Part shown: positions 40,657 to 64,000 of the stretch, in pieces | Layout of the letters: every line of letters begins with the position of its first letter | Numbering within the stretch: position 1 is the first letter of the stretch | Origin: Bergeyella sp. | Lineage (GTDB): Bacteria > Bacteroidota > Bacteroidia > Flavobacteriales > Weeksellaceae | Direction of reading: 5' to 3' | Assembly (NCBI GenBank): GCA_030263285.1 | Contig: SZYB01000001.1 | Span: 742,911-806,910 of the forward strand | DNA: 64,000 nt | Notes under the pieces: model-generated | What the model was told of the DNA's origin: nothing | Database searches by the model: none | Seen by the model: the letters and a program-made list of their open reading frames with translations, nothing else | Translations under genes and position numbers: made by a program

Positions 40657-40780
40657 CCCCAACCGAGTAAAGTGACCGTTAGGATTGAAAAAATTAATCC
40701 CCCGATTAAGAAGGGTTTTTATTATTTTTTCCACAGTATTTTATTGTATAAAGCACTAAAAATCATACTATTATTTTATA

Positions 40781-40808
40781 AAAAAGAGTTTGTTAACAAA
40801 CTCTTTTT
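40781..40808 (+). terminator. Intrinsic terminator after the MFS gene
   Basis: A perfect inverted repeat of 14 + 14 bases (AAAAAGAGTTTGTT / AACAAACTCTTTTT), followed by further T residues. Located 125 bases after the MFS stop and 57 before dnaB. Confidence 0.7.
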
Positions 40809-40852
40809 TACTTTTTTTCTCAATCCGGAATCAATGAATATTATAATTAATT

Positions 40853-49377: not shown

Positions 49378-51297
49378 CTACTGCCTCACAACCCTAAACC
49401 CCATATTGACAAACGCTCCCTTCTTCTTGATTCTAGAAAACTCATATTGGGTAGCTAACTGATTCTGAACTACGTTCATCTTCTTAAAAAGATTTCCTTT
49501 CTTATTTTCTCTCATAAGAATATCATTTACCACGTCAAAACCAATAACCGCATATCTGGTCATATCCTTGCAATACCTCCCCTTATACTGTCTCAAAATT
49601 TCTTTCTCAAAATCTCCCTGAGTATTGATCTTCCTGTCCATAAGATAAACCAAACCATACCCAGAGAAATCTGAACTATTTTTTTCAAAACTCGGAGAAT
49701 AACACAGACTATAAGCCTTTGTTCCTTTCAAATCTTGAGAGAGATGGTTGAGTCTCCTTATAAAATCTCGGGCTGTTTTTTCTTGCTTCGAAGCAAGTAT
49801 TGCCATAATGGGAGATTCTTTTAGGTCGGCGGGAGATCCCATGCCTATTTTTTCTGCACTTTCCACGATCGTAATCTCTGGATTTTTAAGCTTTTTCTCT
49901 AATCCTTTACTGAGAAGCCGGGATATATTTTTCCCATTTTTGTCATCTGCCAAAATATAAATCTTTTGATTGTCATATTCTCCGGATATCTCCTCTATCA
50001 TCCTGTCTACATAGACCTGCTCTGCGGGCTCCATAATCACAAGGTTGCTGTATTTATACAGATCTTCCGAATTTGCAAACGGAGAGACAACGGGTATCTT
50101 TTGGGAATCTACATACTCCAATACATCCAGAATACCGGATTTGAATAAAGGACCTATGATAAGATCCGTGTTATTCTGGTTAATCTGAGAGAGAGAAGAC
50201 CTAAAACCGCTTTCATTGCCTGCATCAATTATCTTCACATCCATTTTTAACCCTCTCTTTACATTCTGCTCTATGGCCAACTGGGCACCGGTGAGAAAAT
50301 CCGCTGCGATAGACCGGTACGTTTTGTCTCCTGAATTAAATCCGAAAGGGAGCATAATGGCCACCTGAAGGGCACCCTCCGTAATTTTAGAATACTCTTG
50401 TGTATCTATCTTCTTGATTCTCACCACCATTCCCTCGACAAGCCCATCCACAACCTTGGGATTAAGTTTCAAAAACTCATCCAGACTAATCCCATATTTA
50501 TGGAGTATCCCAAAAACCGTATCGCCCCGTTTTATCCTATATACGATATACCCCTCCTCTTCAACTCCCGGTTTATTAGGTCTACACAATGAATTTTCTG
50601 CGTCTAAATCCTCCATATTCTTCGCAGAAATTGAAGAAAAATATCCGTCTTTTCTGATTCTTATTTTATCTCCTGCCTGCAGTCCTCTCTCTTTCAACTC
50701 AGGATTGAGTTTCAGCAGAATCTTTCTGGAAATTCCCATTTTTTTTTCAAGTCCATAATAGGTGTCTCTGGGCTGAACTTCATAAAAAACCTCATCCAAT
50801 AAAGATTCCCTGGGGGAACTTCCTTCTTTTTCCGAAGAATTAGAAGACCCAGCAGGTACGCTCCGTGTCGGGAAGGGATCGGACATAGACACCAGTACCT
50901 TATCCCATTTTTTATTGGGCAATACAATTTCTTCTCCTACCTGCATTTTTAGATCAGGATTGAGTTTTTTTAGTTCCTCTTCAGAAATTCCGTATTTTCT
51001 CGTGATGCTGTACAACGTTTCTTTGGGCTTCAAAACGACCTTAACATACTGATTTTTATTTTTATCTTCCACTGTTAAAGTCTTTTTATTTTTTATACCA
51101 GTAAAGTATATTGAATCTCCTACCTTCAGATTACCCTTTTGTAGTTTGGGATTTAATCTGTAAAGCTCTTCAAGAGATATGTTATGTTTCTTGGAAATGC
51201 TATAGGCGGTATCTCCCGAAGAAACCACATACATATCTTGAGAAAAAATACCAGAAAAGAGAACCAAACCAGATAATATGAATATCTTCTCAATCAT
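49378..51297 (-). CDS. LysM repeats fused to a periplasmic ligand-binding (PBP1-like) domain
   Basis: A 639-residue secreted protein. After a signal peptide (FILSGLVLFSGIFSQ) come four LysM modules, each with a D/T-x-x-Y-x-I core: near residues 23-68, 84-128, 169-212 and 252-296. From about residue 310 to 635 there is a type 1 periplasmic binding-protein fold (LQVAIMLPFGFNSGDKTYRS, LTGAQLAIEQNVKRG, IIGPLFKSGILDVLEYVDSQ, IPVVSPFANS). LysM modules bind peptidoglycan; the binding-protein half may sense or present a ligand at the wall. No ABC transporter accompanies it. The promoter at 51339-51368 is convincing. Confidence 0.85.
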   Translation of the reverse strand: MIEKIFILSGLVLFSGIFSQDMYVVSSGDTAYSISKKHNISLEELYRLNPKLQKGNLKVGDSIYFTGIKNKKTLTVEDKNKNQYVKVVLKPKETLYSITRKYGISEEELKKLNPDLKMQVGEEIVLPNKKWDKVLVSMSDPFPTRSVPAGSSNSSEKEGSSPRESLLDEVFYEVQPRDTYYGLEKKMGISRKILLKLNPELKERGLQAGDKIRIRKDGYFSSISAKNMEDLDAENSLCRPNKPGVEEEGYIVYRIKRGDTVFGILHKYGISLDEFLKLNPKVVDGLVEGMVVRIKKIDTQEYSKITEGALQVAIMLPFGFNSGDKTYRSIAADFLTGAQLAIEQNVKRGLKMDVKIIDAGNESGFRSSLSQINQNNTDLIIGPLFKSGILDVLEYVDSQKIPVVSPFANSEDLYKYSNLVIMEPAEQVYVDRMIEEISGEYDNQKIYILADDKNGKNISRLLSKGLEKKLKNPEITIVESAEKIGMGSPADLKESPIMAILASKQEKTARDFIRRLNHLSQDLKGTKAYSLCYSPSFEKNSSDFSGYGLVYLMDRKINTQGDFEKEILRQYKGRYCKDMTRYAVIGFDVVNDILMRENKKGNLFKKMNVVQNQLATQYEFSRIKKKGAFVNMGFRVVRQ

Positions 51298-51338
51298 TGC
51301 AAGTAAAATAAAAATGAGGGCGTATAAAAGCCACAGTG

Positions 51339-51368
51339 CAAAATTAAGATTTTGAATTTAAATCTCAA
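51339..51368 (-). promoter_or_regulatory. Predicted promoter of the LysM fusion gene
   Basis: On the minus strand TTG (51368-51366), a 19-base spacer and TAATTTTG (51346-51339) match the Bacteroidota -33/-7 consensus well. It lies within and after the end of bshC, 42 bases before the ATG at 51297. Confidence 0.55.
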
Positions 51369-52944
51369 CGACCGCAAGCTCGGAGTTTTCCACATCAATA
51401 ATCCGATAAACATGCGCCAACCAATCGGTTCCATAATTACTATAAAAAACGCTAAAATTCAGGCTACGCTCCTGCCAGTTCTTTTTTGGATGCACTGCAT
51501 AAAAAAGATTCTCTACACGCTCCACAAGTTCTTTCTGCTTTATCCTTTCTGCACGCAAAAGCCGCTTCTGCATCTTGCAGAACGATTTCAACTGGCGTTT
51601 TTCTTCTGCCTCCACCAGATTTCTGAAAGTAATATCCGTAAGAGCGGCTTGGGTTTTCAGATCCTCGAACGCCCGACGGATGAGTCTTTTTTTGTCGTTT
51701 ATTTCGTCTTTCAAAGGATGATTCTCCAAAAGTATATCGGTTATTATATCTGCAAAATTTCCAAAAAAATCCGAAATCCGTAAATGAAGTTTATCTATCT
51801 TTTTAAAGGTTTTTTCCTCAAGAAAAAGCAGTGAATTTCTGGGAATAAGAAGTGGAAAAGGAAGACGGAGATAGGCAAAATACTCTTTTAGTTCTAACCA
51901 ATACATAATCTCTGCATTACCCCCCACATAGGCGATATTAGGTAGAACAGACTCCTGAAAAACAGGACGCATCAACACATTGGGACTAAATTTTTCCGGA
52001 TGTTTCTCCAGGATTTCCAAAATTTCTTCCTGAGTAAAAAAAATTTCTTTATCCAAAACGGAAAACTGCACTCCATCAAATACAATCCTATCTCTTGTAT
52101 CTGTGAGATAAAAGAGATTAATCTCTCTGGGCTGAACCTGTACCTTATGATATGCTTTTTTTATAAATTCCCGTGTATTCCCCGTAGTTTTTTTAAGCGT
52201 ACAAGAAAAAATTTCATCACGAAAAACAGATTTCATTTCGGCTTTCAACAAAACATCATCCCCATCTAGACACAAAAGCCCGTAACGAGAAAATATTCTT
52301 TGGGTAAGCTTGCGTATTGCCTCACTTAACGAGTTTCCTTTTTTATAAGCCTCTTTCATCCACTCTATAAGCTCTGTGCCGTAAATGCAGTCTTGAAATT
52401 CTTTCTCAAACGCCGAAATAAAATAGTCCTCCTGCACCAAAATTTTACCTACCGCTCCTCCGGAAGCTCCCCCTAGTTCATAACGATGATTTTCTGTCCA
52501 AAAATGATTAATCTCTTCAAAATCATGATCTTCCGTAGCCATCCAAAAAACAGGGACAAAGGAATAATCGGGATACCGTTTTTTAAGATGGTCTGCCGTT
52601 TTTATGGTTTGCAGTATCTTGTAAATAAAAAAAACAGGTCCCGTAAAAAGATTAGGCTGATGTCCCGTAACCACAGTAAAAGTCTTTGCATCTCTCAGCA
52701 ACTCTAAATTTTCCTCCTGACTCGAATCCAAAGAATACCCTCTGTACTGTTTTTCTAGGGCACGACAAAGAAGTGTACGAGTTTTGTGAGAAAATGACTC
52801 TTCTTTTCTTAAGAGCGCGGGCAGAATATTTTTTTTATTAAAAATTAAATGAGAAAAACCTTCAATCTTTCCTTCAACAAAATCCTTTATGAGCCGAGGC
52901 ACCCTATCAATCTTTCCAAAAGGAATACGTGTATCTACCTTCAT
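51358..52944 (-). CDS. bshC: Bacillithiol biosynthesis cysteine-adding enzyme BshC
   Basis: Joins cysteine to glucosaminyl-malate in the last step of bacillithiol synthesis. The 528 residues carry TVVTGHQPNLFTGPVFFIYK near residue 90, then PVFWMATEDHDFEEINHF, the MRPVFQESVLPNIAYVGG stretch and a C-terminal coiled region with EAEEKRQLKSF. This is the full BshC pattern at normal length. With bshB1 at 708-1433 it indicates bacillithiol as a cellular thiol; bshA is not in this window. It starts one base after the porin gene stop. Confidence 0.93.
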   Translation of the reverse strand: MKVDTRIPFGKIDRVPRLIKDFVEGKIEGFSHLIFNKKNILPALLRKEESFSHKTRTLLCRALEKQYRGYSLDSSQEENLELLRDAKTFTVVTGHQPNLFTGPVFFIYKILQTIKTADHLKKRYPDYSFVPVFWMATEDHDFEEINHFWTENHRYELGGASGGAVGKILVQEDYFISAFEKEFQDCIYGTELIEWMKEAYKKGNSLSEAIRKLTQRIFSRYGLLCLDGDDVLLKAEMKSVFRDEIFSCTLKKTTGNTREFIKKAYHKVQVQPREINLFYLTDTRDRIVFDGVQFSVLDKEIFFTQEEILEILEKHPEKFSPNVLMRPVFQESVLPNIAYVGGNAEIMYWLELKEYFAYLRLPFPLLIPRNSLLFLEEKTFKKIDKLHLRISDFFGNFADIITDILLENHPLKDEINDKKRLIRRAFEDLKTQAALTDITFRNLVEAEEKRQLKSFCKMQKRLLRAERIKQKELVERVENLFYAVHPKKNWQERSLNFSVFYSNYGTDWLAHVYRIIDVENSELAVVEI

Positions 52945-52945
52945 A

Positions 52946-54838
52946 CTAGTGAAATAAATTCCAATAAATCCCGATATTTACCCTAAAATCATAAAAGGGA
53001 TAATAAGGGGCGGTGTAGGATCTGTTCTTCATAAAGGTCGTAGAAAAATTCTGCAGATCTAAATAAACCTGAAAAGTTTTCACCCTTAGATTGACATAAA
53101 AATCGGCAATGGGCTGCCCGCCTATCTCGTAACCTTTGGCAGAAGGAAGAATAAATTCATTAAGTACGGGAGAATATTCCCGGGAAGAAAATCGGGAAAA
53201 ATAATACAACCTAACTCCCGTAATGATCTCCGCTGCCCTATCGAATAGCTTAGACTGCCAAAAAAAGTTACTTCTGCCTATAAAATTGGGTACAGGATAT
53301 ACCTCCCTCTGGGTGAGATTGTACTGAAATTGTGTCCGAAGGTTAAGGTGAAATTTCCCGAAATTAAAAGTACTCTCCCCTCCTGTTTGTACGATATTAA
53401 GTGCGGTTTTGGTTTGCAGTATCTGCACATTGCTGTCGACATACGTAAAGTGATCTATCCTGTAAAACCGAGTAAAAATTTTTGTAGAAAACCCTGCAAA
53501 CCCCAGAGCTCCGCCTATATTCAGAATATTTTCGTTCTTAAGATTAAAATTTTGAAAATCAAGATGTCTCACAGGAGACGCGTTGATAAGGTAATTAAAA
53601 TTCGGAGCAGAGGTCTGTAACAAGAAGTTTCCACTCAGAGAAAAATCTTTTGCAAAATTCCATTGTGCGGCATTATAAGAGCGAAAATAATTTCCAAAAG
53701 TACTACCATAAGAATAATCAAAATCCGATTCCAGAGACAACCAATTCCCCAACGTACCTCTAAAATTTCCCACAAGCCCCAACCGTGATTCTGAATATCG
53801 TGTTTTATTGATATTGGAAACGGAAGCACCCGAAGTCCCCAGACTAAGTGTGCTGTATTGCGTCCCAATATCCAACAAAAATCCGGAAGTTTCCCAAGAA
53901 AGTCCCACGATATTTTTAAGGGTATTCAAATCCTTTCTGCTAGAATTCCCAAGTCCGGAAACATAATCCTCCCTAAAAAATGCAGAATCTCCACTTCCTA
54001 TCACAAATGAATACCGATTCATTTGGTAAGAGAAAGTATGCTGAATCTTCAACGGAATTTTCTCATCAAAAGGAGAAAAACTCTGCCTGAAATAATACCT
54101 TCTGTATAAAAATTTTGAATAAGAATCATTGAGATTTACGGGAATATTCTGCCGGTTACTGAAGCGTGAGTCGGATCCCACAAAGTAAGATAAATCCCGA
54201 ATGCCTCCATTCTCAGAATTATTTACATTTTGGTTTAAAAAATGTCCCAAAACAGAATATTTACCCCCGAGAGAACGATACCTTGCAGAAATAAGCGTAT
54301 GGTTATTAGACGCCAAACTATTGGTGTAATATCCCTGGGACCTCAGACCCTTGTACTCCAGAGCGAAATTAAAATTCTTTCCTACATTCTGCGTATAGCG
54401 TGATTGTAAAACTCCACCCGATCGCATGGCAGAATGATAAATGAAAGAAGTGGTAGGAGTTTTTACGTCATAATATTTTATGTCGCCCTCCCCCAGAATT
54501 ACGTACGACTTATTGGTCGGGATAAGACTGAGAGATTTTTTAGTGTCTACAGAAAAAATAAGATCCTGAAATCCGGATCCTATGTTGGCAAACATGATTT
54601 TCCCAAAGTTATCCCGGGTATTATACTGAGAAAACCTGTATCCATTTTGGAAGCTGAAAGTGGTATCTATAGAGGTATAGGCCGTATGTTCTGTTTTATA
54701 CAAATAATCTGATATGGAAGGGCGAAAAATTTTTACAGAATCTTTTTCTAGGACAGTATTTTTTTGATTATCATGGACTTTCTGAGGATAAATCCCTGCA
54801 TAAAAAAAAAGGAATGATAAAAAGGATAAAAATCTCAT
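52946..54838 (-). CDS. Putative beta-barrel porin
   Basis: A 630-residue outer-membrane protein with a signal peptide (MRFLSFLSFLFFYAGIYPQ), many alternating aromatic strands and the Bacteroidota putative-porin pattern (GEGDIKYYDVKTPTTSFIYH, SAMRSGGVLQSRYTQNVGKN). The C-terminal strand YDFRVNIGIYWNLFH ends in an aromatic residue pair usual for barrels. I start it at ATG 54838; the in-frame TTG at 54844 is less likely. It is probably transcribed from the TACTTTTG box upstream and leads into bshC. Substrate unknown. Confidence 0.82.
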   Translation of the reverse strand: MRFLSFLSFLFFYAGIYPQKVHDNQKNTVLEKDSVKIFRPSISDYLYKTEHTAYTSIDTTFSFQNGYRFSQYNTRDNFGKIMFANIGSGFQDLIFSVDTKKSLSLIPTNKSYVILGEGDIKYYDVKTPTTSFIYHSAMRSGGVLQSRYTQNVGKNFNFALEYKGLRSQGYYTNSLASNNHTLISARYRSLGGKYSVLGHFLNQNVNNSENGGIRDLSYFVGSDSRFSNRQNIPVNLNDSYSKFLYRRYYFRQSFSPFDEKIPLKIQHTFSYQMNRYSFVIGSGDSAFFREDYVSGLGNSSRKDLNTLKNIVGLSWETSGFLLDIGTQYSTLSLGTSGASVSNINKTRYSESRLGLVGNFRGTLGNWLSLESDFDYSYGSTFGNYFRSYNAAQWNFAKDFSLSGNFLLQTSAPNFNYLINASPVRHLDFQNFNLKNENILNIGGALGFAGFSTKIFTRFYRIDHFTYVDSNVQILQTKTALNIVQTGGESTFNFGKFHLNLRTQFQYNLTQREVYPVPNFIGRSNFFWQSKLFDRAAEIITGVRLYYFSRFSSREYSPVLNEFILPSAKGYEIGGQPIADFYVNLRVKTFQVYLDLQNFSTTFMKNRSYTAPYYPFYDFRVNIGIYWNLFH

Positions 54839-54854
54839 GTACAAAAAACCTTCA

Positions 54855-54926: not shown

Positions 54927-56108
54927 ATGCCCATAGTACAACTTCGATCTATCCTGGACAATGATTTCTATAAAATTACCATGCAAAATGCGGTGGTAAA
55001 AATTTTCCCTCACCAGAAGGTAAAATATAAGTTCATCAACAGAGGAAAACATAAGTTCCCTGAAGGTTTTGGAAAATCTCTGAGAAAGTCTGTGGATAGC
55101 ATGAGCTATCTCAGACTAACAAAGGCAGAAAAAAAATTTATGATCAAAACGTGCCCCTATATAGATCTTCCGTATTTGGATTTTCTGGAGGGATATCGGT
55201 ATGATCCCTCGGAGGTGAAGATAAGGCAAATGGGGAATGATCTTGACGTGAGTGTAGAGGGTCTTTGGTACAGAACCATTTTGTGGGAAGTTCCCCTTTT
55301 GGCACTTATCTCAGAGTTGCATTACGTGATGAACCATCTGGAAAGAGACGCCAATAACATCGTGATAGAAAAAACCATAGATAAAGCCAATTTTCTCAAT
55401 CTCTTGGGGGTCAATTTTGCAGAATTTGGCACGAGAAGGAGGCATTCTTTTAACGTACAGGATATGGTAGTAAAGGCTCTTTGCAATAAATGCGACACTA
55501 CATTTATCGGGACTTCAAACGTATATTTTGCCATGAAATATCATATAAAGCCTATCGGTACCCATGCCCACGAGTGGTTTATGTTTCATGCGGCGGAATA
55601 CGGATTTAAAATGGCCAATGCTATTGCCCTGGAGCATTGGGTGGATGTGTACAGAGGGGACTTGGGAGTGGCGCTCTCGGACACTTTTACTACAGAAGTT
55701 TTCTTTCGTCAGTTTGATAAAAAATTTTCCAAGCTTTTTGATGGTGTGCGACATGACAGTGGAGATCCTTTGGAATTTGCAGACAAAACCATCGCCCACT
55801 ATACAGAAAACGGCATCAATCCGTTATTCAAATACATTATTTTCTCGGATGGGCTCAATCTAGAAAAAGTAGAAGAAATCACAAAATACTGCAAAGGAAA
55901 AATAGGCGTCTCTTTCGGAATAGGTACCAACCTTACCAATGACGTAGGTCTCAAACCCATGAACATTGTAATAAAACTGGTGGGCGTACAGGCACAAAAC
56001 AGAGAGTGGATCCCTACGGTTAAACTCTCAGACGAAAAAGAAAAATATACCGGAGAAAAAAAAATGATAGAACTGGCAAAAGAATTTTTGAGCATAAAGG
56101 ACCATTAA
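54927..56108 (+). CDS. pncB: Nicotinate phosphoribosyltransferase
   Basis: Makes nicotinate mononucleotide from nicotinate and PRPP in NAD salvage. The 393 residues start IVQLRSILDNDFYKITMQNA, contain LGVNFAEFGTRRRHSFNVQD, the phosphorylated-histidine region IGTHAHEWFM and DGVRHDSGDPLEFADKT, and IFSDGLNLEKVEEI near the C-terminal end. Length is normal. It is the last intact gene before the decayed patch at 56.1-57.9 kb. Confidence 0.95.
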   Translation: MPIVQLRSILDNDFYKITMQNAVVKIFPHQKVKYKFINRGKHKFPEGFGKSLRKSVDSMSYLRLTKAEKKFMIKTCPYIDLPYLDFLEGYRYDPSEVKIRQMGNDLDVSVEGLWYRTILWEVPLLALISELHYVMNHLERDANNIVIEKTIDKANFLNLLGVNFAEFGTRRRHSFNVQDMVVKALCNKCDTTFIGTSNVYFAMKYHIKPIGTHAHEWFMFHAAEYGFKMANAIALEHWVDVYRGDLGVALSDTFTTEVFFRQFDKKFSKLFDGVRHDSGDPLEFADKTIAHYTENGINPLFKYIIFSDGLNLEKVEEITKYCKGKIGVSFGIGTNLTNDVGLKPMNIVIKLVGVQAQNREWIPTVKLSDEKEKYTGEKKMIELAKEFLSIKDH

Positions 56109-56705
56109 AAAAATTGAGTTCCCAAACTTTAATAAAAGAGGAAACTTAATTTATTTTTGGCAATTAATCGGTTAGTTTTTTAAAAATCGGGGGATTATAT
56201 ATAATTCTACACATAAATAAAAATTATGGTAATTATAAAGCAGTTGACACCATTTAGTTAAAATCTAATTTTAGGTCAAAGTATTTTTGTCCTAAAAATT
56301 TCCGATATTTTTTTATTTTTTTCGCTTATTACCCACCATATTGGTAATCATTTGTTCAAATGGAGTTTTATGTTCCAAATCTTTAAACCTTATCACGGGT
56401 TCTTTTTTGTGATATTTTATTCCATCAAAATTAACGATCTTTACTTCGGATTATTTTTCTGTCACATCTTTAATATAAAATATAAAAATAATATTCGTTA
56501 TTGATTAAAACATGCTTTATATTAGCAACTATACACAAAAACGAAAAAATTTTTATTCAATTTTGTCTCATGAAGATTACAAGGAACCGTGCACCTCATC
56601 AAAGACCTCGAATCTTTTTCTAAATGCGTGTGTGTTGTATGCCGTTTTATGTTGAATAAGGTGAGGATTGAAAAAAGACACTTCCATACTGGAGAGGGTG
56701 TAGTA
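56109..56705. other. AT-rich gap with small degraded open stretches
   Basis: No intact gene is visible across about 600 bases. Two short minus-strand open stretches with coding flavour occur: 56313-56450 (listed separately) and 56577-56687, a 36-codon frame beginning MEVSFFNPHLIQHKTAYNTH that I cannot assign. The rest is AT-rich without recognised structure. Confidence 0.45.
56313..56450 (-). pseudogene. Short remnant of an unknown small gene
   Basis: The minus strand reads SEVKIVNFDGIKYHKKEPVI, then RFKDLEHKTPFEQM and a basic end, with a TAA at 56313-56315. Immediately upstream an in-frame TAA (56451-56453) interrupts a frame that otherwise continues (YIKDVTEK before the stop). One nonsense change in a small gene would explain it. 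I do not recognise the family. Confidence 0.35.
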
Positions 56706-57127
56706 TTATCTGTTTCTATGACTCTTTGTAACCTTTGCTAAAAAAGTTGAAACTATTGCAACCATTATAATTCCTCCAAATATACTCCCTAATATTTCAT
56801 GACCTTCATGTATTTAGATATGCGGAAAAACCCATACCTGCCAATACAATTATAAAAGAAAATACTAGACCCATGGAATTAACCATTCGATCCCCTTTTT
56901 CCGTTTTTTGTACCAAGTCAACTTTTTTTTCCAAACGCTTCATGTCTGAATTTTTGTTCTTTTTCAGCACATGATTTAAGCCAATCTAAAATATTAGGAT
57001 CTATTTTATGTAACTTTTCTATCTCACTGGCATCAGGTAGCAAGTTATCATCAAAAACCTCCTCTACAACATGGCCTTGACCATGTTGGCTTCTTACTAA
57101 TTGTTGCTTTCTTTGTTGTTTAGCCAT
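56706..57127 (-). pseudogene. DUF2335 membrane protein broken by two frameshifts
   Basis: The first 69 codons from ATG 57127 read a soluble head with LPDASEIEKLHKIDPNILDW and EKEQKFRHEAFG, the DUF2335 signature. The frame ends after a run of eight A on the coding strand (+ strand T run 56923-56930). Shifting frame there recovers VDLVQKTEKGDRMVNSMGLV and a membrane helix (FSFIIVLAGMGFSAYL); a second shift near CTAAATACATGAAGG recovers HEGHEILGSIFGGIIMVAIV and STFLAKVTKSHRNR up to TAA at 56706. Together these give one complete two-helix DUF2335 protein of about 135 residues. Sequencing error at the poly-A run is possible, but two lesions favour decay. Confidence 0.75.
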
Positions 57128-57349
57128 TACAAAGATATTTTTCCAAGGCAGCGTTTAAATCATTCGCTGCTTTATTTCTATCTCTTTGGAGATTTTCCCT
57201 ATCATCCTTAGTGCTAGATATGTCTAGGTTCTTGATTTCTTTTTTAATATTAAATAACCTTCACTTTTAGAAGAATATTCACCTAAACACCCATGTTGTA
57301 TATTTTCCAAAACCAAAAATGAAGTTTTAAGAAGGCTTATAATTTTCAT
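57120..57349 (-). pseudogene. Small gene with one frameshift, coupled to the DUF2335 gene
   Basis: From ATG 57349 the minus strand reads MKIISLLKTSFLVLENIQHG and on to a TAG in the first frame; a shift within a T/A-rich run near 57240-57250 recovers NIKKEIKNLDISSTKDDREN and LQRDRNKAANDLNAALEKYL ending at TAA 57120-57122. The last eight bases overlap the DUF2335 start (ATGGCTAA), a layout of coupled genes. The C-terminal half is helical and charged. No family is recognised. The length of 230 bases is not a multiple of three, which fits a one-base lesion. Confidence 0.55.
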
Positions 57350-57415
57350 TTTGATACTTTTTTCAGTTTAATAAAGATATTCAAATCTACACAAATTTTA
57401 TGCCTGTCAAAAATG

Positions 57416-57925
57416 GCTCCTAAAAATATAACAAATTTTAATTGTGGCGAATTCGCCACAATTAAAAATAAATAGGGAGAAAATTCATATAAGATAGGCA
57501 CTAAAGAATAGACACAATCAACTAATTCGATAGTTGTAATTGCGAAAAAAGATAGATACGGAGTAATTTATGCACATAAAGATATCGCTTTTAATTTCGG
57601 AATGTAAATCAGTCCAACCTTTCAGTTATATATACTAAAAAAAGCCAAAGACTGAAAGAATATAGAAACCAATCAATATGGATCAGAATGAAATGTAAGG
57701 AGATATTGAGTAAATCGAACTACTTAATTTACATACTGAGCAATTAAAAAGTATATCATTCCAAAAGCCAATCATACCACAAAACCCACCTACTTCCAAT
57801 TCCGACAAAAAAACCTTAAAAAAGGTAGACTATGACCCTAATATGGAAAAACAACAAAACAAATGCTTCACAAACTTATGTAAGACTTAAATGTTATGAA
57901 AATTGGAAAATTGTACGTAAGTCAC
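57416..57925 (+). pseudogene. KilA-N domain protein remnant with many in-frame stops
   Basis: The + strand frame of 57434 reads NFNCGEFATIKNK, stop, GENSYKIGTKE, stop, TQSTNSIVVIAKKDRYGVIY, AHKDIAFNFGM, stop, ISPTFQLYILKKAKD, and further on AIKKYIIPKANHTTKPTYFQ. This matches, in order and spacing, the Bacteroidota KilA-N proteins I know, with the core RYGGTYAHKDIAFEFG and WISPEFQLYL. About eleven stop codons interrupt it with no frameshift over about 480 bases. At three of the stops the family normally has tryptophan. The N-terminal part of the domain is missing. The remnant runs into the 3' end of the SusD gene. Confidence 0.75.
57436..57467. repeat. Perfect 32-base palindrome inside the KilA-N remnant
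   Basis: TTTTAATTGTGGCGAA followed by its exact complement TTCGCCACAATTAAAA. The bases encode the conserved residues FNCGEFATIK of the KilA-N remnant. No T run follows on either strand, so it is not a normal terminator. Confidence 0.85.
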
Positions 57926-57936
57926 CAAACATTTTT

Positions 57937-59346
57937 CTAATACCCCTGATTTTGAGTCAGGTTTGGGTTTGTGGACATATCTACATTCGGAATAGGAAAG
58001 GCCAGCCTGGGATCACCGTAAGGTATAGAGCCCTTAAATGTTTGCCTTACATCCACATAAGGAATCTCCTTTCCTGTTCTTACCAGATCGTCAAATCTAA
58101 ACCCTTCAAAAGCCAGCTCCTTCCTTCTCTCCAGAAGAATATTCTCCAGAGTTGCCTCTGTATAGCCTTTTGCCCTTCTGTTCTTCGGTATTTTGTTAAG
58201 CCATGTGAGCGCTTCGGCGGCTTTCCCATTGTATAAAAGCGCCTCCGCATAGATAAGCAACACCTCTTCATAACGTATAAGCGGAATATCATCCCTAAAA
58301 TTTATAGTATCCGGATATTTTCCCTTGTTATAAAACTCTCCATAATTGTTATCCTGATAGGGAGCTATCATCTCGGCACGCACATCTCCCGCATCATATG
58401 CTTCGTACAAATTTCTGAGCACTGCAATATCACCATATCCTGCTCCGGAAGGTGTTAAACGGTAGATATAGGACAGGCCATTGATCCCCAAATTATCTGT
58501 CGCACTTTTTGCTATCGCAAAAATAACATTGGGCTGTTGTTTGGCGCTCCACACCGCAGAAAAATTGTTTGCATCGGCTATGGTATACTTCCCTGCCTCT
58601 ATAATTTTTTTTGCCGCAGATTCCGCCAAGGCGTAATCCTTAAAGTAAAGGGCCACTCTTGCCTTTACGGCGAGTGCCGCATAAGAAGAAAAAAAGTTGT
58701 TGGAAGTTTTGTCCAGCTTCGGATCCATGAGCTGTAACGCTTGGTCTATATCAGAAATGATCTGGTCATAATTTTCCTGTACTGTTCCTCTTGCAGGGTA
58801 CAAGCTGTTATCTGTCTTAAACTCTTTTACATAAGGAATTCCTTTTGCCTGCATGCCTTCACTCCCTACATAATATTGCCCATAAAACCTCAACAAGTCA
58901 AAATGGGCAAGCGCCCGCATAAGGTAAGCCTCCCCTATGACGTATTTGACTTTTGAAATATCTCCAGAGATCGTAGTAATATCCCTATTTATCAGGAGAT
59001 TAGCATTTAAAACCACTTTATAAATTCCTCCCCAAGTGCCTCCAGCATATCCGTCATTATTCGTCATTGCAAACATTCCGGGAAATACAAACCTATTGGA
59101 TCTGCCATTCGCATAGGTGTTGTCCGAACGCACCTCACTATAAATAATTACATTTCTACCGTAGTATGCACTTCCCCCCATGCCTTCGTACCCCCCTAAG
59201 ATAAGGGACTGCAAATCTTCCAATTTTTTAATACTTCTATCCAAATCTTTTGACTGCTCCAACGTAGGATCCAGATTACAAGAATGAAGACTGAAAAATC
59301 CAAAAAATCCGAGAACAACCGTGATGTATATATATTTCCTTTTCAT
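57937..59346 (-). CDS. SusD/RagB-family nutrient-binding lipoprotein
   Basis: An outer-surface lipoprotein that caps its SusC partner. The 469 residues have a signal peptide ending FFSLHSC (lipobox cysteine C23), the SusD helical core (EAYLMRALAHFDLLRFYGQY), SSYAALAVKARVALYFKDYA and the C-terminal pattern NILLERRKELAFEGFRFDDL, VRTGKEIP. Length is at the short end for SusD. It lies five bases after SusC, the usual order. No glycoside hydrolase or regulator gene is nearby, so the ligand cannot be inferred. Confidence 0.93.
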   Translation of the reverse strand: MKRKYIYITVVLGFFGFFSLHSCNLDPTLEQSKDLDRSIKKLEDLQSLILGGYEGMGGSAYYGRNVIIYSEVRSDNTYANGRSNRFVFPGMFAMTNNDGYAGGTWGGIYKVVLNANLLINRDITTISGDISKVKYVIGEAYLMRALAHFDLLRFYGQYYVGSEGMQAKGIPYVKEFKTDNSLYPARGTVQENYDQIISDIDQALQLMDPKLDKTSNNFFSSYAALAVKARVALYFKDYALAESAAKKIIEAGKYTIADANNFSAVWSAKQQPNVIFAIAKSATDNLGINGLSYIYRLTPSGAGYGDIAVLRNLYEAYDAGDVRAEMIAPYQDNNYGEFYNKGKYPDTINFRDDIPLIRYEEVLLIYAEALLYNGKAAEALTWLNKIPKNRRAKGYTEATLENILLERRKELAFEGFRFDDLVRTGKEIPYVDVRQTFKGSIPYGDPRLAFPIPNVDMSTNPNLTQNQGY

Positions 59347-59351
59347 CTTAC

Positions 59352-62243
59352 CTAAAGTTTTATATTAACTACAAAGAGAATCGATTTTACCGGAGGAGTA
59401 GTAAGGCTAGTAAATCCGCTTGCAGCCACCTCCGGATCTAGCTTCAGGCGTTTGTCTTTCACCCACGTTAGGAGATTGGTCCCTCTTACAGAAAGAGAAA
59501 GCATCTCTATACCCGTGCTTTTCAGAAAATCACCGGACAAAGAATACCCTACCTGCAAGTCCCTTAGCCGAAGATAATCTCCCTGATATAAAAAACGCGT
59601 AGAGGGTCTGGTAGAAAAATCATTGTTGCTGTAGCTGAGTTTAGGCACATCGGTAACATCCCCAGGTTTCTGCCAACGACCCAAAAGTTCTTGATATCCA
59701 TTACCGGATGCCAATGCAGATTTATCATTAGCCATAAAAAAACGCCCGTAGTAATCATATATCTTATGTCCTCCTGCAAAAGAAAACAGAGCCTTCAAGA
59801 ACCAGTCTTTATATTTAACGTCAGTCCCAAAACCTCCCGTATATTTCGGGATGGGTGACCCCTGCAACGCAAGCTCCGCCGTATTATAATTACCGGTAGT
59901 CTCTCCATCTACCCCGTTCTTATACCAGAGCGGTGCCCCTGTAGCCGGATCCACCCCCGCCCATTTTCTTAAATACCAAGAACGTATAGGTTCCCCCACT
60001 CTTGTAGATCTATAAGCGCTGCCCGCGTTGGGGTCAATGTCACGACCCTGAGCATCTTTTGCAAGTTGGGTAACTTTATTGCTTAACGGACTTATCTGCT
60101 GAAAAAGCGACCAACTAAAATTTTCGGTTTTTATAACCTGCTGGGATAACTGAATCTCAAGACCGGAATTCACTACAGTACCCACGTTCTGATACTGGGA
60201 AGAAAACCCCGACGTAGTGGGCAAAGGAACACTCATCAGCAGGTCATAGGTTTTTTTGTTAAAATATCCTATAGATCCCGAGAGTTTACTTTCAAAAAGA
60301 CTAAAGTCTACCCCCAGATCAAACATCCTTTGTTTCTCCCAGGTAAGGTTCGAATTTCCGTACAGAGAAGGGTAAGCCCCTCCCCGCCCTGCATAAGTCG
60401 AATTATAAGAGAGAAAACTCTGATAAGAATTGAGCGTTATATTTGAGTTTCCACTGGTACCATAGGACGAACGGAGCTTTAACTCATCAAAGATATCCCC
60501 AAAAAAATCTTTATGCAGATTATAAGCAGCCCCTAGGGAAGCAAAACTACCATACCTCTTCCCTGGAGCAAACCGAGACGATCCCTCCCTCCTGAATGAG
60601 GCATTAAGAATGAGTTTGTTATCATAAGAATAGTTGAGCAATCCCAGAAAAGCGATGTTCTTCCAGTCAAACATCCGAGACCCTGCTTGATAGTTGGCAG
60701 CGGCATTATCTATGTTGGTAAGACCATCGGTAGCAAAGGTAGTCCCATAACCATACAAATAATCTTGTCTGAATTTCTGGTACTCCATAAGTCCTGTGGC
60801 ATCAAATCTGTTTTTGTCCCCCATGTTCCAAAAATAGTGCAAACCAGACTGAGACACATACGTAAAGTTTTGGGTAAAAGATCGAGTGGATCCTCCTCCT
60901 TGAGGGGCTTCGTCCCCCATCACCCTATTGCCGTAATATTTATAATCGCTATTGGAATAATCTAAATTGATAGTCTGGGAAAAAGTAAGCCGATCCCACA
61001 CCTTCCATTCTAGCTTATTAACAGTAAAAACCCTTGCCACCTTTACCCAAAAAACATCATTTTTTAGAGTATACAGAGGGTTAAAGACATCGGAAAAGCC
61101 CGCGATATACGGATTGGGTGAACCATCTGATAAATAAGGACTTGCCCACGGAGATATCATATACATGGCTAAATAAGGATTAGCATAATAAGCGGCTTGA
61201 TCATAAATGGGATTTTGCCGGGTATAAGACCCGTTAACACTGGTCTCCAGCTTCACCTTATCAGAGAGGGTAGAAGTATACCTTAGCATCCCGGACATTC
61301 TCTGGAATGAGGGGCCTATGGCAGTCCCTTGCGTATCATTGTATCCCAATGAAGCATAGTAAGTATTTTTATCGCCCCCCCCCGCTGCAGAAAAATTATA
61401 CGACTGCAACGGTGCATTTTTTCTGCGAATCGCGTCTTGCCAGTTATAATTCCTTTTTCCCCCAGCTTCCCACACGTTATAATTTCCCACATTGTTCTGA
61501 CGAATAAAGTTCAGTGCCTCTTCAGACTTGGTAATTCCTGCATAATTCTGGTTTACCAACCCTTCCTGCAGCAACATAAGGCGCTGGTCTCCAGTAAGGG
61601 GTTTTAATTCGTTGTACGCATCATTCTGGAAACCGACAGTACTCTCAAAACTGTACCGTGCCTTCCCTTTTTTCCCTCTCTTCGTGGTAATAAGAATCAC
61701 CCCGTTGGCTCCCCTCGCTCCGTACTGAGCCGTAGAGCCCGCATCTTTAAGCACCGTTACGCTCTCTATGTCCTCATTATTAATGGAGGCCAGACTGGAG
61801 AAGCTAGATCTTGACTGTGTAGCACCCTGTGTAGCATCTACCAAAGGTTCATTAAGATCCTGATCTATCATAGGCACTCCGTCAATTACGTAAAGCGGCC
61901 TGGCAGAGGCATTAATAGACCCTACTCCCCTTATTCTCACATCCTGTACCGCGCCCGGATTTCCGGAGGTAGCCGTAATCTGTACCCCTGCCGCACGGCC
62001 CTGTAGCGTAGACTCTACCGTCTGAGCCGCAGGTGAATTGATTTCCGCTGTTTTTAGCTTCTGAACGGATCCCGTAAGTTCGGAAACCTTTCTTTTCTGG
62101 TAACCTACCACCACCACCTCATCTATTTCTTTTACCTTTTCGGTCTTTATGCGTACCGTATCCTTCTGTGCAAACAAGACCTGACTAGAAAAGAAAATGA
62201 CAAACGGAACCCCACTGCGAAGCAACCTACCAAGATATTTCAT
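59352..62243 (-). CDS. SusC/RagA-family TonB-linked outer membrane transporter
   Basis: A 963-residue outer-membrane barrel for import of a ligand delivered by SusD. After the signal peptide (MKYLGRLLRSGVPFVIFFSS to VLFAQ) the TonB-box region VKEIDEVVVVGYQKRKVSEL follows almost at once, so the N-terminal carboxypeptidase-like domain found in most SusC proteins is absent. The plug has RGVGSINASARPLYVIDGVP, and ANGVILITTKRGKKGKARYS is diagnostic. The start is ATG 62243; an in-frame start at 62267 would place a basic leader before the signal peptide. The promoter box at 62265-62272 overlaps that longer start, which supports the shorter one. Confidence 0.93.
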   Translation of the reverse strand: MKYLGRLLRSGVPFVIFFSSQVLFAQKDTVRIKTEKVKEIDEVVVVGYQKRKVSELTGSVQKLKTAEINSPAAQTVESTLQGRAAGVQITATSGNPGAVQDVRIRGVGSINASARPLYVIDGVPMIDQDLNEPLVDATQGATQSRSSFSSLASINNEDIESVTVLKDAGSTAQYGARGANGVILITTKRGKKGKARYSFESTVGFQNDAYNELKPLTGDQRLMLLQEGLVNQNYAGITKSEEALNFIRQNNVGNYNVWEAGGKRNYNWQDAIRRKNAPLQSYNFSAAGGGDKNTYYASLGYNDTQGTAIGPSFQRMSGMLRYTSTLSDKVKLETSVNGSYTRQNPIYDQAAYYANPYLAMYMISPWASPYLSDGSPNPYIAGFSDVFNPLYTLKNDVFWVKVARVFTVNKLEWKVWDRLTFSQTINLDYSNSDYKYYGNRVMGDEAPQGGGSTRSFTQNFTYVSQSGLHYFWNMGDKNRFDATGLMEYQKFRQDYLYGYGTTFATDGLTNIDNAAANYQAGSRMFDWKNIAFLGLLNYSYDNKLILNASFRREGSSRFAPGKRYGSFASLGAAYNLHKDFFGDIFDELKLRSSYGTSGNSNITLNSYQSFLSYNSTYAGRGGAYPSLYGNSNLTWEKQRMFDLGVDFSLFESKLSGSIGYFNKKTYDLLMSVPLPTTSGFSSQYQNVGTVVNSGLEIQLSQQVIKTENFSWSLFQQISPLSNKVTQLAKDAQGRDIDPNAGSAYRSTRVGEPIRSWYLRKWAGVDPATGAPLWYKNGVDGETTGNYNTAELALQGSPIPKYTGGFGTDVKYKDWFLKALFSFAGGHKIYDYYGRFFMANDKSALASGNGYQELLGRWQKPGDVTDVPKLSYSNNDFSTRPSTRFLYQGDYLRLRDLQVGYSLSGDFLKSTGIEMLSLSVRGTNLLTWVKDKRLKLDPEVAASGFTSLTTPPVKSILFVVNIKL

Positions 62244-62264
62244 GATTCTAAAACGTTTTGTAGA

Positions 62265-62272
62265 CAAATATA
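62265..62272 (-). promoter_or_regulatory. Predicted promoter -7 box for susC-susD
   Basis: The minus strand reads TATATTTG, an exact TAnnTTTG match, 21 bases before the ATG at 62243. Confidence 0.5.
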
Positions 62273-62279
62273 AAAAAAT

Positions 62280-62301
62280 TTCGTAATGTTAACATAACGA
62301 A
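62280..62301. promoter_or_regulatory. Operator-like inverted repeat in the susC promoter
   Basis: The arms TTCGTAATGTT and AACATAACGAA form a 22-base inverted repeat with one mismatch. It lies just upstream of the -7 box and would cover the -33 region, where a dimeric regulator could block or assist RNA polymerase. The regulator is not in this window. Confidence 0.5.
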
Positions 62302-62352
62302 TGTTAAAAAATAAGCAGGAAGCCAGAAAAAAATTAACTAGATAGAAAAAAG

Positions 62353-62392
62353 CGAAGAGCCATTTTCAGTACTTCTGAAAAATGGCTCTTTA
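62353..62392 (-). terminator. Terminator after the RND pump gene
   Basis: A perfect 12-base stem (AAGAGCCATTTT at 62355-62366 with its complement at 62379-62390). On the minus strand it is followed by TCGC and a T run. It lies between the stop of the pump gene and susC. Confidence 0.7.
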
Positions 62393-62443
62393 TTCCATTA
62401 GAATTATGACACCTTCTAATTCAAGGCGGTGTTTTCTCGGTTT

Positions 62444-64000
62444 TTATTTTTCATATTTCTTCTTATAAGCGTAATAGAAAACATGAGGCAAAACGGTAAA
62501 AGACAACAGCATGCATACCAGAAGGCCCCCTACAATCATAATGGCCAGAGGTTTTTGTATCTCGGATCCCATCCCGTTTGAGAGCGCGGCCGGGAACAAT
62601 CCCATAGACCCCATAAGCGCAATCATCACCACAGGACGTATTCGGCTTTTTACTCCATCTGTAACAGCATCTTTCAAAGGAATTCCGTTGATGAGGTTCT
62701 CCTTCATCACCCCGATAAGTACAATTCCGTCTATGGTGGCCACACCGAAAAGGATAATAAAACCTATCCCCGCAGATATGCCAAAGATAGTACCCGTAAG
62801 CCAAAGAGAGATAAAACCTCCCACAAAAGCAAAAGCAAGTGTGATGGAAGAAATAAGGGTATCCTTTATATTTCCAAAATTAAAGTACAGCAACATAAGA
62901 ATGAGCAATAAGGATATAGGAATCACTGTGGAGAGTTGTTTTGCCGCTCTTTCCTTGCTTTCAAACTCCCCTGCCCACACCATTTTATTTTTTTTCGGCA
63001 ATTTCACCTCTCCAGCCACTTTGGCTTTGGCTTCTTCTATCGTACTGCCCAGATCTCGTCCCTCTATATTAAACCCTACGGCCACATACCGGCTATTCCC
63101 CTCCCTGTAGACAAAGGAAGGTCCCGTCCTGTAGCGAATAGTGGCTATTTCTTTGAGTGGGACTTTCTTATCTCCCTGCGTAGGGATAAGAATGTCGCCT
63201 ATCTTGTCCGGAGTATCCCTGTATTGCTTGTCAAATCTCAACACCACATCAAAAACCCTTTCCTCTTCATAAAATTTTGTTGCCCCTTGACCCCCTATCG
63301 TCATTTCGATCACCGCCTGTGCATCGGAAGTAGAAACACCATATCTTGCCATTTTTGAGTCATGAAGCTCAATTCTCAGCTCGGGCAGCCCTATATTCTT
63401 GAATACGTTAACCTCCGTAATGCCAGGTACCGACTGTACCGACTGAGCCACCTGATTTGCATAATTCTCTAGCCGGAATAGATCACTTCCGAATATCTTG
63501 ATCACCAACGGAGCCTTCACTCCTGCCACATATTCTTCCACATTATCCTGAATAGGCTGGCTAAAACCGAAAGTAATTCCCGGATAATGCTCCAGAGAAT
63601 TTTTTATCTCCTCAACAAGCTTTTCCTTAGAAATACTTCTCTTCCATTCTTGTTGTGGTTTCAGCTGGAGATGAAACTCTATATTGAAAAATCCCGTGGG
63701 ATCTGTCCCGTCATTAGGTCTTCCTGTTTGGGTCAACACAAAATCTACTTCTTCAAATTTTCTAAGGGCCTCCTTCATTTCTTTGGTGAGCCGAACCGAT
63801 TCATCCAAATTGACGCTGTTTGGGAGTGTCGCTCTCACATAGATCGCCCCCTCATTGAGCTTTGGCAAAAATTCTGACCCGTAAGAAACAAATCGTAAAA
63901 CACACAAAAAAAATACAAGAACAAAGCCCGCCAGAAATGCTCTCTTATGTCTGGCACTAAAAGCATAAAGACTGTAAATATTGTTTCTGAAAAAAAGAGA
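62444..64000 (-). CDS. CzcA/CusA-family heavy-metal RND efflux pump (C-terminal part)
   Basis: The last 518 residues of a proton-driven RND transporter; the frame stays open to the window edge at 64000, so the N-terminal half is missing. Visible features are a helix (AFLAGFVLVFFLCVLRF) followed by SEFLPKLNEGAIYVRATLPN, the porter domain, EGRDLGSTIEEAKAKV and the C-terminal membrane helices with GISAGIGFIILFGVATIDGI and GMGSEIQKPLAIMIVGGLL. The LNEGAIYVRATLPNSVNLDE pattern is typical of the CzcA/CusA branch (divalent or monovalent metal ions) rather than the drug-exporting AcrB branch. Partner genes (CusB-like, CusC-like) should lie beyond the window. Confidence 0.9.
   Translation of the reverse strand, partial: SLFFRNNIYSLYAFSARHKRAFLAGFVLVFFLCVLRFVSYGSEFLPKLNEGAIYVRATLPNSVNLDESVRLTKEMKEALRKFEEVDFVLTQTGRPNDGTDPTGFFNIEFHLQLKPQQEWKRSISKEKLVEEIKNSLEHYPGITFGFSQPIQDNVEEYVAGVKAPLVIKIFGSDLFRLENYANQVAQSVQSVPGITEVNVFKNIGLPELRIELHDSKMARYGVSTSDAQAVIEMTIGGQGATKFYEEERVFDVVLRFDKQYRDTPDKIGDILIPTQGDKKVPLKEIATIRYRTGPSFVYREGNSRYVAVGFNIEGRDLGSTIEEAKAKVAGEVKLPKKNKMVWAGEFESKERAAKQLSTVIPISLLLILMLLYFNFGNIKDTLISSITLAFAFVGGFISLWLTGTIFGISAGIGFIILFGVATIDGIVLIGVMKENLINGIPLKDAVTDGVKSRIRPVVMIALMGSMGLFPAALSNGMGSEIQKPLAIMIVGGLLVCMLLSFTVLPHVFYYAYKKKYEK

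Follow-up and report, generated by a model that had tools for sequence, protein, structure and literature searches.

We report that the promoter of a susC–susD operon, in the 64-kb window examined here (the whole stretch of 64,000 nucleotides that was analysed), carries a 22-bp inverted repeat over its expected -33 region, and that part of this repeat is shared in register with a conserved promoter dyad found before one class of susC genes in the same family. The repeat may be a rewired operator, at which an unlinked regulator dedicated to this locus would bind over the -33 region, probably to repress it, a reading suggested by the sequence comparisons below which we hold tentatively, with confidence just short of an even balance.

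The basic layout had been described in a first-pass annotation as a 22-base inverted repeat with one mismatch, standing above an exact -7 box and over the -33 region, and this description is borne out (Table 1). The promoter reads TTAACATTCGTTATGTTAACATTACGAAATTTTTTTATATTTG on the susC strand, where the two arms of 11 bases (TTCGTTATGTT/AACATTACGAA) adjoin without a spacer and 7 bases separate the repeat from the -7 box downstream. Sigma-A promoters of Flavobacterium psychrophilum have TAnnTTTG at -12 to -5, as given in the accessible part of PMC9723704, which places the predicted transcription start near 62260 and hence the repeat at -41 to -20; the window promoter has the same TAnnTTTG, and that part of the source mentions no palindrome over -33. 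Promoters of the ECF type have, according to the same part, a CGT -10 element instead of TAnnTTTG, and an ECF sigma/anti-sigma promoter is not what is seen here, given the exact TATATTTG. With the susC ATG at 62243 the leader would be 17 nt long, and the TTG start at 62267 given in the list of open reading frames falls within the -7 box and does not begin the gene. Sigma-A promoters are expected to have a -33 TTTG 19–21 nt above the -7 box. The window has the -7 element but reads TATG at the 20-nt spacing, in the position where relatives have TTTG, so that its -33 box is weak and lies within the repeat.

Table 1. Positions, in window coordinates, of the susC promoter elements and of the genes and signals around them.
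Feature	Position	Strand	Remarks
22-bp inverted repeat TTCGTTATGTTAACATTACGAA	62280..62301	minus	one mismatch; predicted -41 to -20
-7 box TATATTTG	62265..62272	minus	exact TAnnTTTG match
Predicted transcription start	62260	minus	placed from the -7 box position in the accessible part of PMC9723704
Expected -33 box	62293..62296	minus	TATG where the consensus has TTTG; spacing to the -7 box 20 nt, counted by hand
GTTATGTTAA, half-site shared in register with family susC promoter	62289..62298	minus	same distance from ATG
Cluster of three ATGTTAA half-sites	62286..62307	both	plus 62286-62292, minus 62295-62289, plus 62301-62307
susC	59352..62243	minus	963 aa; ATG start; signal peptide MKYLGRLLRSGVPFVIFFSSQVLFAQ; TIGR04056, 648 bits
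susD	57937..59346	minus	PF07980 and PF14322
Terminator-like hairpin of upstream czcA-type gene	62355..62390	minus	-18.5 kcal/mol; separates czcA-type gene from susC
CzcA/CusA-type efflux pump gene, end part	62444..64000	minus	TIGR00914; runs past window edge
Porin_10, BshC and LysM genes	49378..54844	minus	mark the conserved susCD locus in relatives

Both susC and susD are predicted to be transcribed from the palindrome-bearing promoter, and the best solved relatives of their products are RagA for SusC and the 'putative sugar binding protein' 3kez for SusD. The efflux pump gene that lies only partly in the window is complete at L091 855-3947, and upstream of it on the same strand, all beyond the window end, are genes for an adaptor, an outer-membrane partner, a histidine kinase and an OmpR-type response regulator. 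The first-pass remark that no such regulators are seen next to susCD is correct for those genes that were read within the window; past its edge, the response regulator and kinase genes lie 6–8 kb from susC. No Rfam family matched 56000-64000 with an E value of 1 or below.

Given the position of the response regulator and kinase genes upstream of susC and on its strand, the repeat could be a site of this OmpR-type response regulator, encoded upstream of the czc-type genes, which would then co-switch susCD and metal efflux; CusR-type boxes can be 22-bp palindromes, as here. We consider this very improbable, as the efflux genes are preceded by a direct repeat of 11 bp, TCAAATTCTAA x2, which is perfect and is found nowhere else in the 77 kb examined, and a strong hairpin intervenes between czcA and susC. 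The direct repeat, a tandem with an 11-bp period, occupies L091 6441-6464, past the window end (it would be 68030-68053 in window coordinates), between the histidine kinase gene, which it closely follows, and the gene for the outer-membrane efflux protein; no such repeat is present at the susC promoter. It is a candidate response-regulator site for the czc-type operon, and would be a more natural one than the susC palindrome. Control by metal through the upstream two-component system is accordingly disfavoured, its candidate site being different, and the link to metal or iron genes raised in the first-pass annotation gains nothing from the genome search, which found no other copy of the repeat. 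The hairpin also bears on the idea that the repeat is itself an additional, weak intrinsic terminator, catching transcripts that run on from the efflux operon, with a TTAA loop followed by a T tract. The fold, at -5.2 kcal/mol, is equalled by only 3 of 200 shuffles and is followed by U7; its stem is nevertheless weak, lacking the stable G+C-rich character expected of such a terminator and missing from the terminator scan, a hairpin of -18.5 kcal/mol already stands approximately 54 bp upstream, and the T tract serves as spacer in a promoter with an exact -7 box, which together leave this explanation with hardly any credibility.

How far the repeat exceeds chance was assessed in several ways. 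Gapless 22-mer repeats with at most one mismatch number 5 in the window, where order-2 Markov sequence gives 1.35, and when the 200-bp gap was shuffled by mononucleotide, a gapless repeat arose in 13 of 3000 shuffles, or in 88 of 3000 with a spacer of 0–8 allowed. On these shuffle and Markov counts the symmetry by itself is suggestive only, being moderately beyond chance and not compelling. The 1.68-Mb genome contains no second copy of the 22-mer within 3 mismatches, and its 10-base core ATGTTAACAT occurs once, the same letters reversed occurring 3 times; a genome-wide regulon of the palindrome is ruled out by this single copy and unique core. The heptamer ATGTTAA occurs 8 times in the window, with 3 of these in the cluster at the promoter (Table 1), and a comparable cluster was found in none of 200 order-3 Markov windows, a count that is partly redundant as two of the three half-sites are the palindrome core itself.

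A wider context is provided by one susC class within the same family (Weeksellaceae), which has a conserved promoter of the form TTTG-N4-TGTTAA-N6-TTAACA-N2-TTTG, a pattern derived from the upstream regions of relatives and not fitted to the window. The TGTTAA-N6-TTAACA-N2-TTTG portion is matched exactly 20 times, in 17 of 59 genomes, whereas a reversed control is matched 3 times, and the next gene is susC in all but one of these matches (19/20, the exception being L036), as judged from N-terminal sequence together with SusC-match coordinates where listed. In relatives the usual distance between this TTTG and the -7 box below it is 20 nt, so that the dyad fills the -33/-7 spacer. Genes with the dyad also share a MNVKLRVLTAGVLFF-type signal peptide and a conserved AT-rich leader; L008 and L104 have genes of this signal-peptide class without the dyad. 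Mainly the right arm TTAACA and the -7 box are kept in L159, L160, L162 and L022, and since these divergent relatives keep mainly that arm, it may be part of the promoter. Additional copies of TGTTAA are found in the 100 bp above -33 of 19 family promoters (9 against 3.3 expected). A further dyad of similar form, TATTAA-N6-TTAATA, is present in the leader of relatives (L037–L055) and runs up to the ATG; it could serve as another operator or form a structure at the start codon. A literature search, drawn mostly from the beginnings of abstracts, found no earlier description of the family dyad.

To score this promoter a family matrix was applied to 22 genes of the signal-peptide class, 10 of which are training sites (training sites score 33.8–41.6, out of 42.8). 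Four of the 12 held-out rows had been found with the matrix itself (L159, L160, L162 and L166_10169); the remaining 8 genes include 3 with scores of 15 or more and 5 with an exact TTAACATATTTG. A further 42 susC genes include 2 with scores of 15 or more, as well as 6 whose upstream DNA was too short for scoring; L121 was without a start. One of the two high scorers is the G030 gene, the closest SusC orthologue of the window gene among 59 related genomes at 51% identity (the next best by score reach 35–37%), whose promoter contains a TGTTAACA palindrome and a lone TGTTAA and scores 19.5. The window promoter scores -3.1. Loosening the family pattern to 3 mismatches let chance matches swamp the signal in all 5 genomes tried, and the contigs of named close relatives yielded only 4 SusC loci, of 26–28% identity, which were useless for footprinting.

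Despite the low matrix score, the window promoter has kept a recognisable part of the family element. When anchored on the ATG it matches the family consensus at 21 of 32 positions at offset -59, an offset also found in several relatives, with GTTATGTTAA identical; this level of match was reached by 29 of 20000 shuffles (offsets -62 to -56). Within it, TATGTTAA at 62296-62289 has the joint best left half-site score in the window. Alike are the locus, the strand order of susC and susD, the position of GTTATGTTAA and the sigma-A-type -7 box, whereas the window is without the right half-site (no TTAACA two bases above TTTG, the right part ranking 125 at best at this promoter), the old -7 box position, the -33 TTTG, the conserved leader and the MNVKLRVLTAGVLFF-type signal peptide. 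The half-sites of the family dyad face each other across 6 bp and those of the window overlap. Aligned directly with 39 family promoter entries, some of which are the same promoter under two locus ids, the 22-mer has 12–16 identities, the best at about -58 from the ATG. Exact membership of the window promoter in the family element is ruled out by its matrix score and by the lack of any element within 2 mismatches; indeed no full family element was found within 2 mismatches anywhere in the window's genome, so that the family regulator may have been lost there.

These losses form the basis of the main rival explanation, a functionless relic, in which the family promoter has left the half-site behind, the other arm arose by accident in AT-rich DNA, nothing binds, and susC is constitutive. 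The relic accommodates the missing leader and right arm, a genome with no other family element, a palindrome present as a single copy and not conserved in relatives, and the frequency with which local shuffles give such repeats (13/3000, or 88/3000 with a spacer). It accounts less readily for half-site clustering beyond the Markov expectation, a core unique in 1.68 Mb and the placement of the repeat exactly over -33, and we regard it as doubtful but a serious contender.

The chromosomal setting is also shared. Most family-dyad matches occupy the same place as the window susCD, above Porin_10-BshC-LysM, and the window's arrangement recurs in G025, for example, where a susCD array is followed by Porin_10, BshC and LysM genes. 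The synteny count covers 25 of the 35 other same-family genomes, with the first 19 loci preselected for the motif or a good SusC match, and finds susC and/or susD directly above Porin_10-BshC in 20 of the 25 (15 from one survey, including L142 via SusC-match coordinates, and 5 from another). They are absent there in 3 (G002, G024 and G030), and 2 are without a call: G018, on a short contig, and G022, with coordinates only, which are suggestive of synteny. The window susCD lies above the same genes with a NAPRTase gene and approximately 1.8 kb interposed (56109-57936, without long ORFs), and thus differs from most relatives examined, in which susD and Porin_10 are adjacent. This interval includes a 30-bp perfect palindrome, TTTAATTGTGGCGAATTCGCCACAATTAAA, at 57437-57466, some 470 bp past the susD end (-18.6 kcal/mol); another intergenic 30-bp perfect palindrome, at 40780-40809, is centred on GTTAAC with a T tract at its end and looks like a terminator. 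Tandem susCD pairs at one fixed locus are seen in G025, G010, G022, G031 and at other susC loci, where promoter and signal peptide are conserved and the receptor sequence has strongly diverged, giving the appearance of an exchangeable expression site.

Conservation of the repeat in relatives had been set as a test in the first-pass annotation, and here the outcome is negative for the intact palindrome, the half-site alone being shared. The 22-mer occurs within 3 mismatches in 44 of 296 same-family genomes, its own included, and a reversed control is no less frequent, as judged by eye from the tabulated hits, without summing the columns; at fewer than 2 mismatches no genome besides its own contains it, and the full palindrome is not conserved across the set. 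The genomes compared for SusC orthologues and for the 22-mer include no congener. One look-alike, in G073, lies within a 1519-aa ORF rather than in a promoter.

The palindrome might instead be an operator that this lineage acquired for an unrelated regulator, for example one like TetR, GntR, NrtR or Fur/Zur, the match of the half-site to the family then being coincidental. Its outer arms, TCGTAAT/ATTACGA, recall the half-sites of Bacillus Zur, although the 7-1-7 spacing of Fur-type sites differs from that of the window repeat. Against acquisition stand the half-site match in register and the lack of a second genomic target, and we judge it improbable, even though palindromes of approximately 21–22 bp are typical of such dimers. 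The accessible part of PMC4666351 describes one of these, BtAraR of the NrtR family, which binds a 21-bp near-palindromic (semipalindromic) operator as a dimer in a Bacteroides promoter and so exemplifies palindromic dimer sites at sugar genes of that genus; the type of palindrome is as in the window, and its sequence and targets differ. The operators of SusR and of the HTCS of Bacteroides thetaiotaomicron likewise precede susCD operons, but as presented in the accessible part of PMC3878776 they consist of direct repeats set far apart (by 21 bp or 67/77 bp, compared with 15 bp for the TTAACAT copies in the window), so the inverted repeat described here is no typical member of either, and no SusR/HTCS-type regulator gene was seen among the susCD neighbours read.

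Returning to the rewired operator, the mechanism that we infer begins from the form seen in the family, a sigma-A promoter in which two facing ATGTTAA half-sites 6 bp apart fill the -33/-7 spacer and would be bound by a dimeric regulator whose gene lies elsewhere and which serves the susCD locus alone. The window genome would have retained the left half-site at the old start-codon distance while losing both the right half-site and the earlier position of the -7 box, with a new -7 box arising 6 bp downstream of the old one and extra half-sites building a compact palindrome over -33. A regulator bound to this palindrome would block access of sigma, and repression might be lifted by a signal linked to the imported nutrient. 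A repressor is favoured because binding over -33 should block sigma, and since the overlap with -33 is combined with a normal 20-nt spacer, such blocking is likelier than activation of the MerR type, where untwisting suits this arrangement less well. The first-pass proposal of a distant regulator with an operator over -33 is thus supported in part: it fits the relatives' dyad at the same promoter with its left half kept in register, and it is not helped by the palindrome, which is not conserved intact. The strongest counter-evidence to the rewired operator is that the intact palindrome is conserved nowhere, together with the absence here of the very arm that persists in the most divergent relatives. 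Moreover, a protein accepting both the overlapping half-sites of the window and the family's facing pair would be unusual, and no intermediate between the two arrangements was seen in the genomes compared.

To our knowledge, SusC/D systems outside Bacteroides often have no regulator genes linked to them. A broader picture, which we think unlikely in its entirety though worth stating, is of one fixed SusC/SusD expression site in which diverse, often tandem pairs are placed behind a near-invariant promoter, leader and signal peptide, and one dedicated regulator reads paired ATGTTAA; the window would then be a natural rewiring, its half-sites moved from the -33/-7 spacer to -33 and its -7 box shifted to compensate. 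A promoter dyad conserved at one locus across many genera is a bait with which the regulator may be fished out, and the window variant would serve as a natural mutant telling which half-site and which spacing matter.
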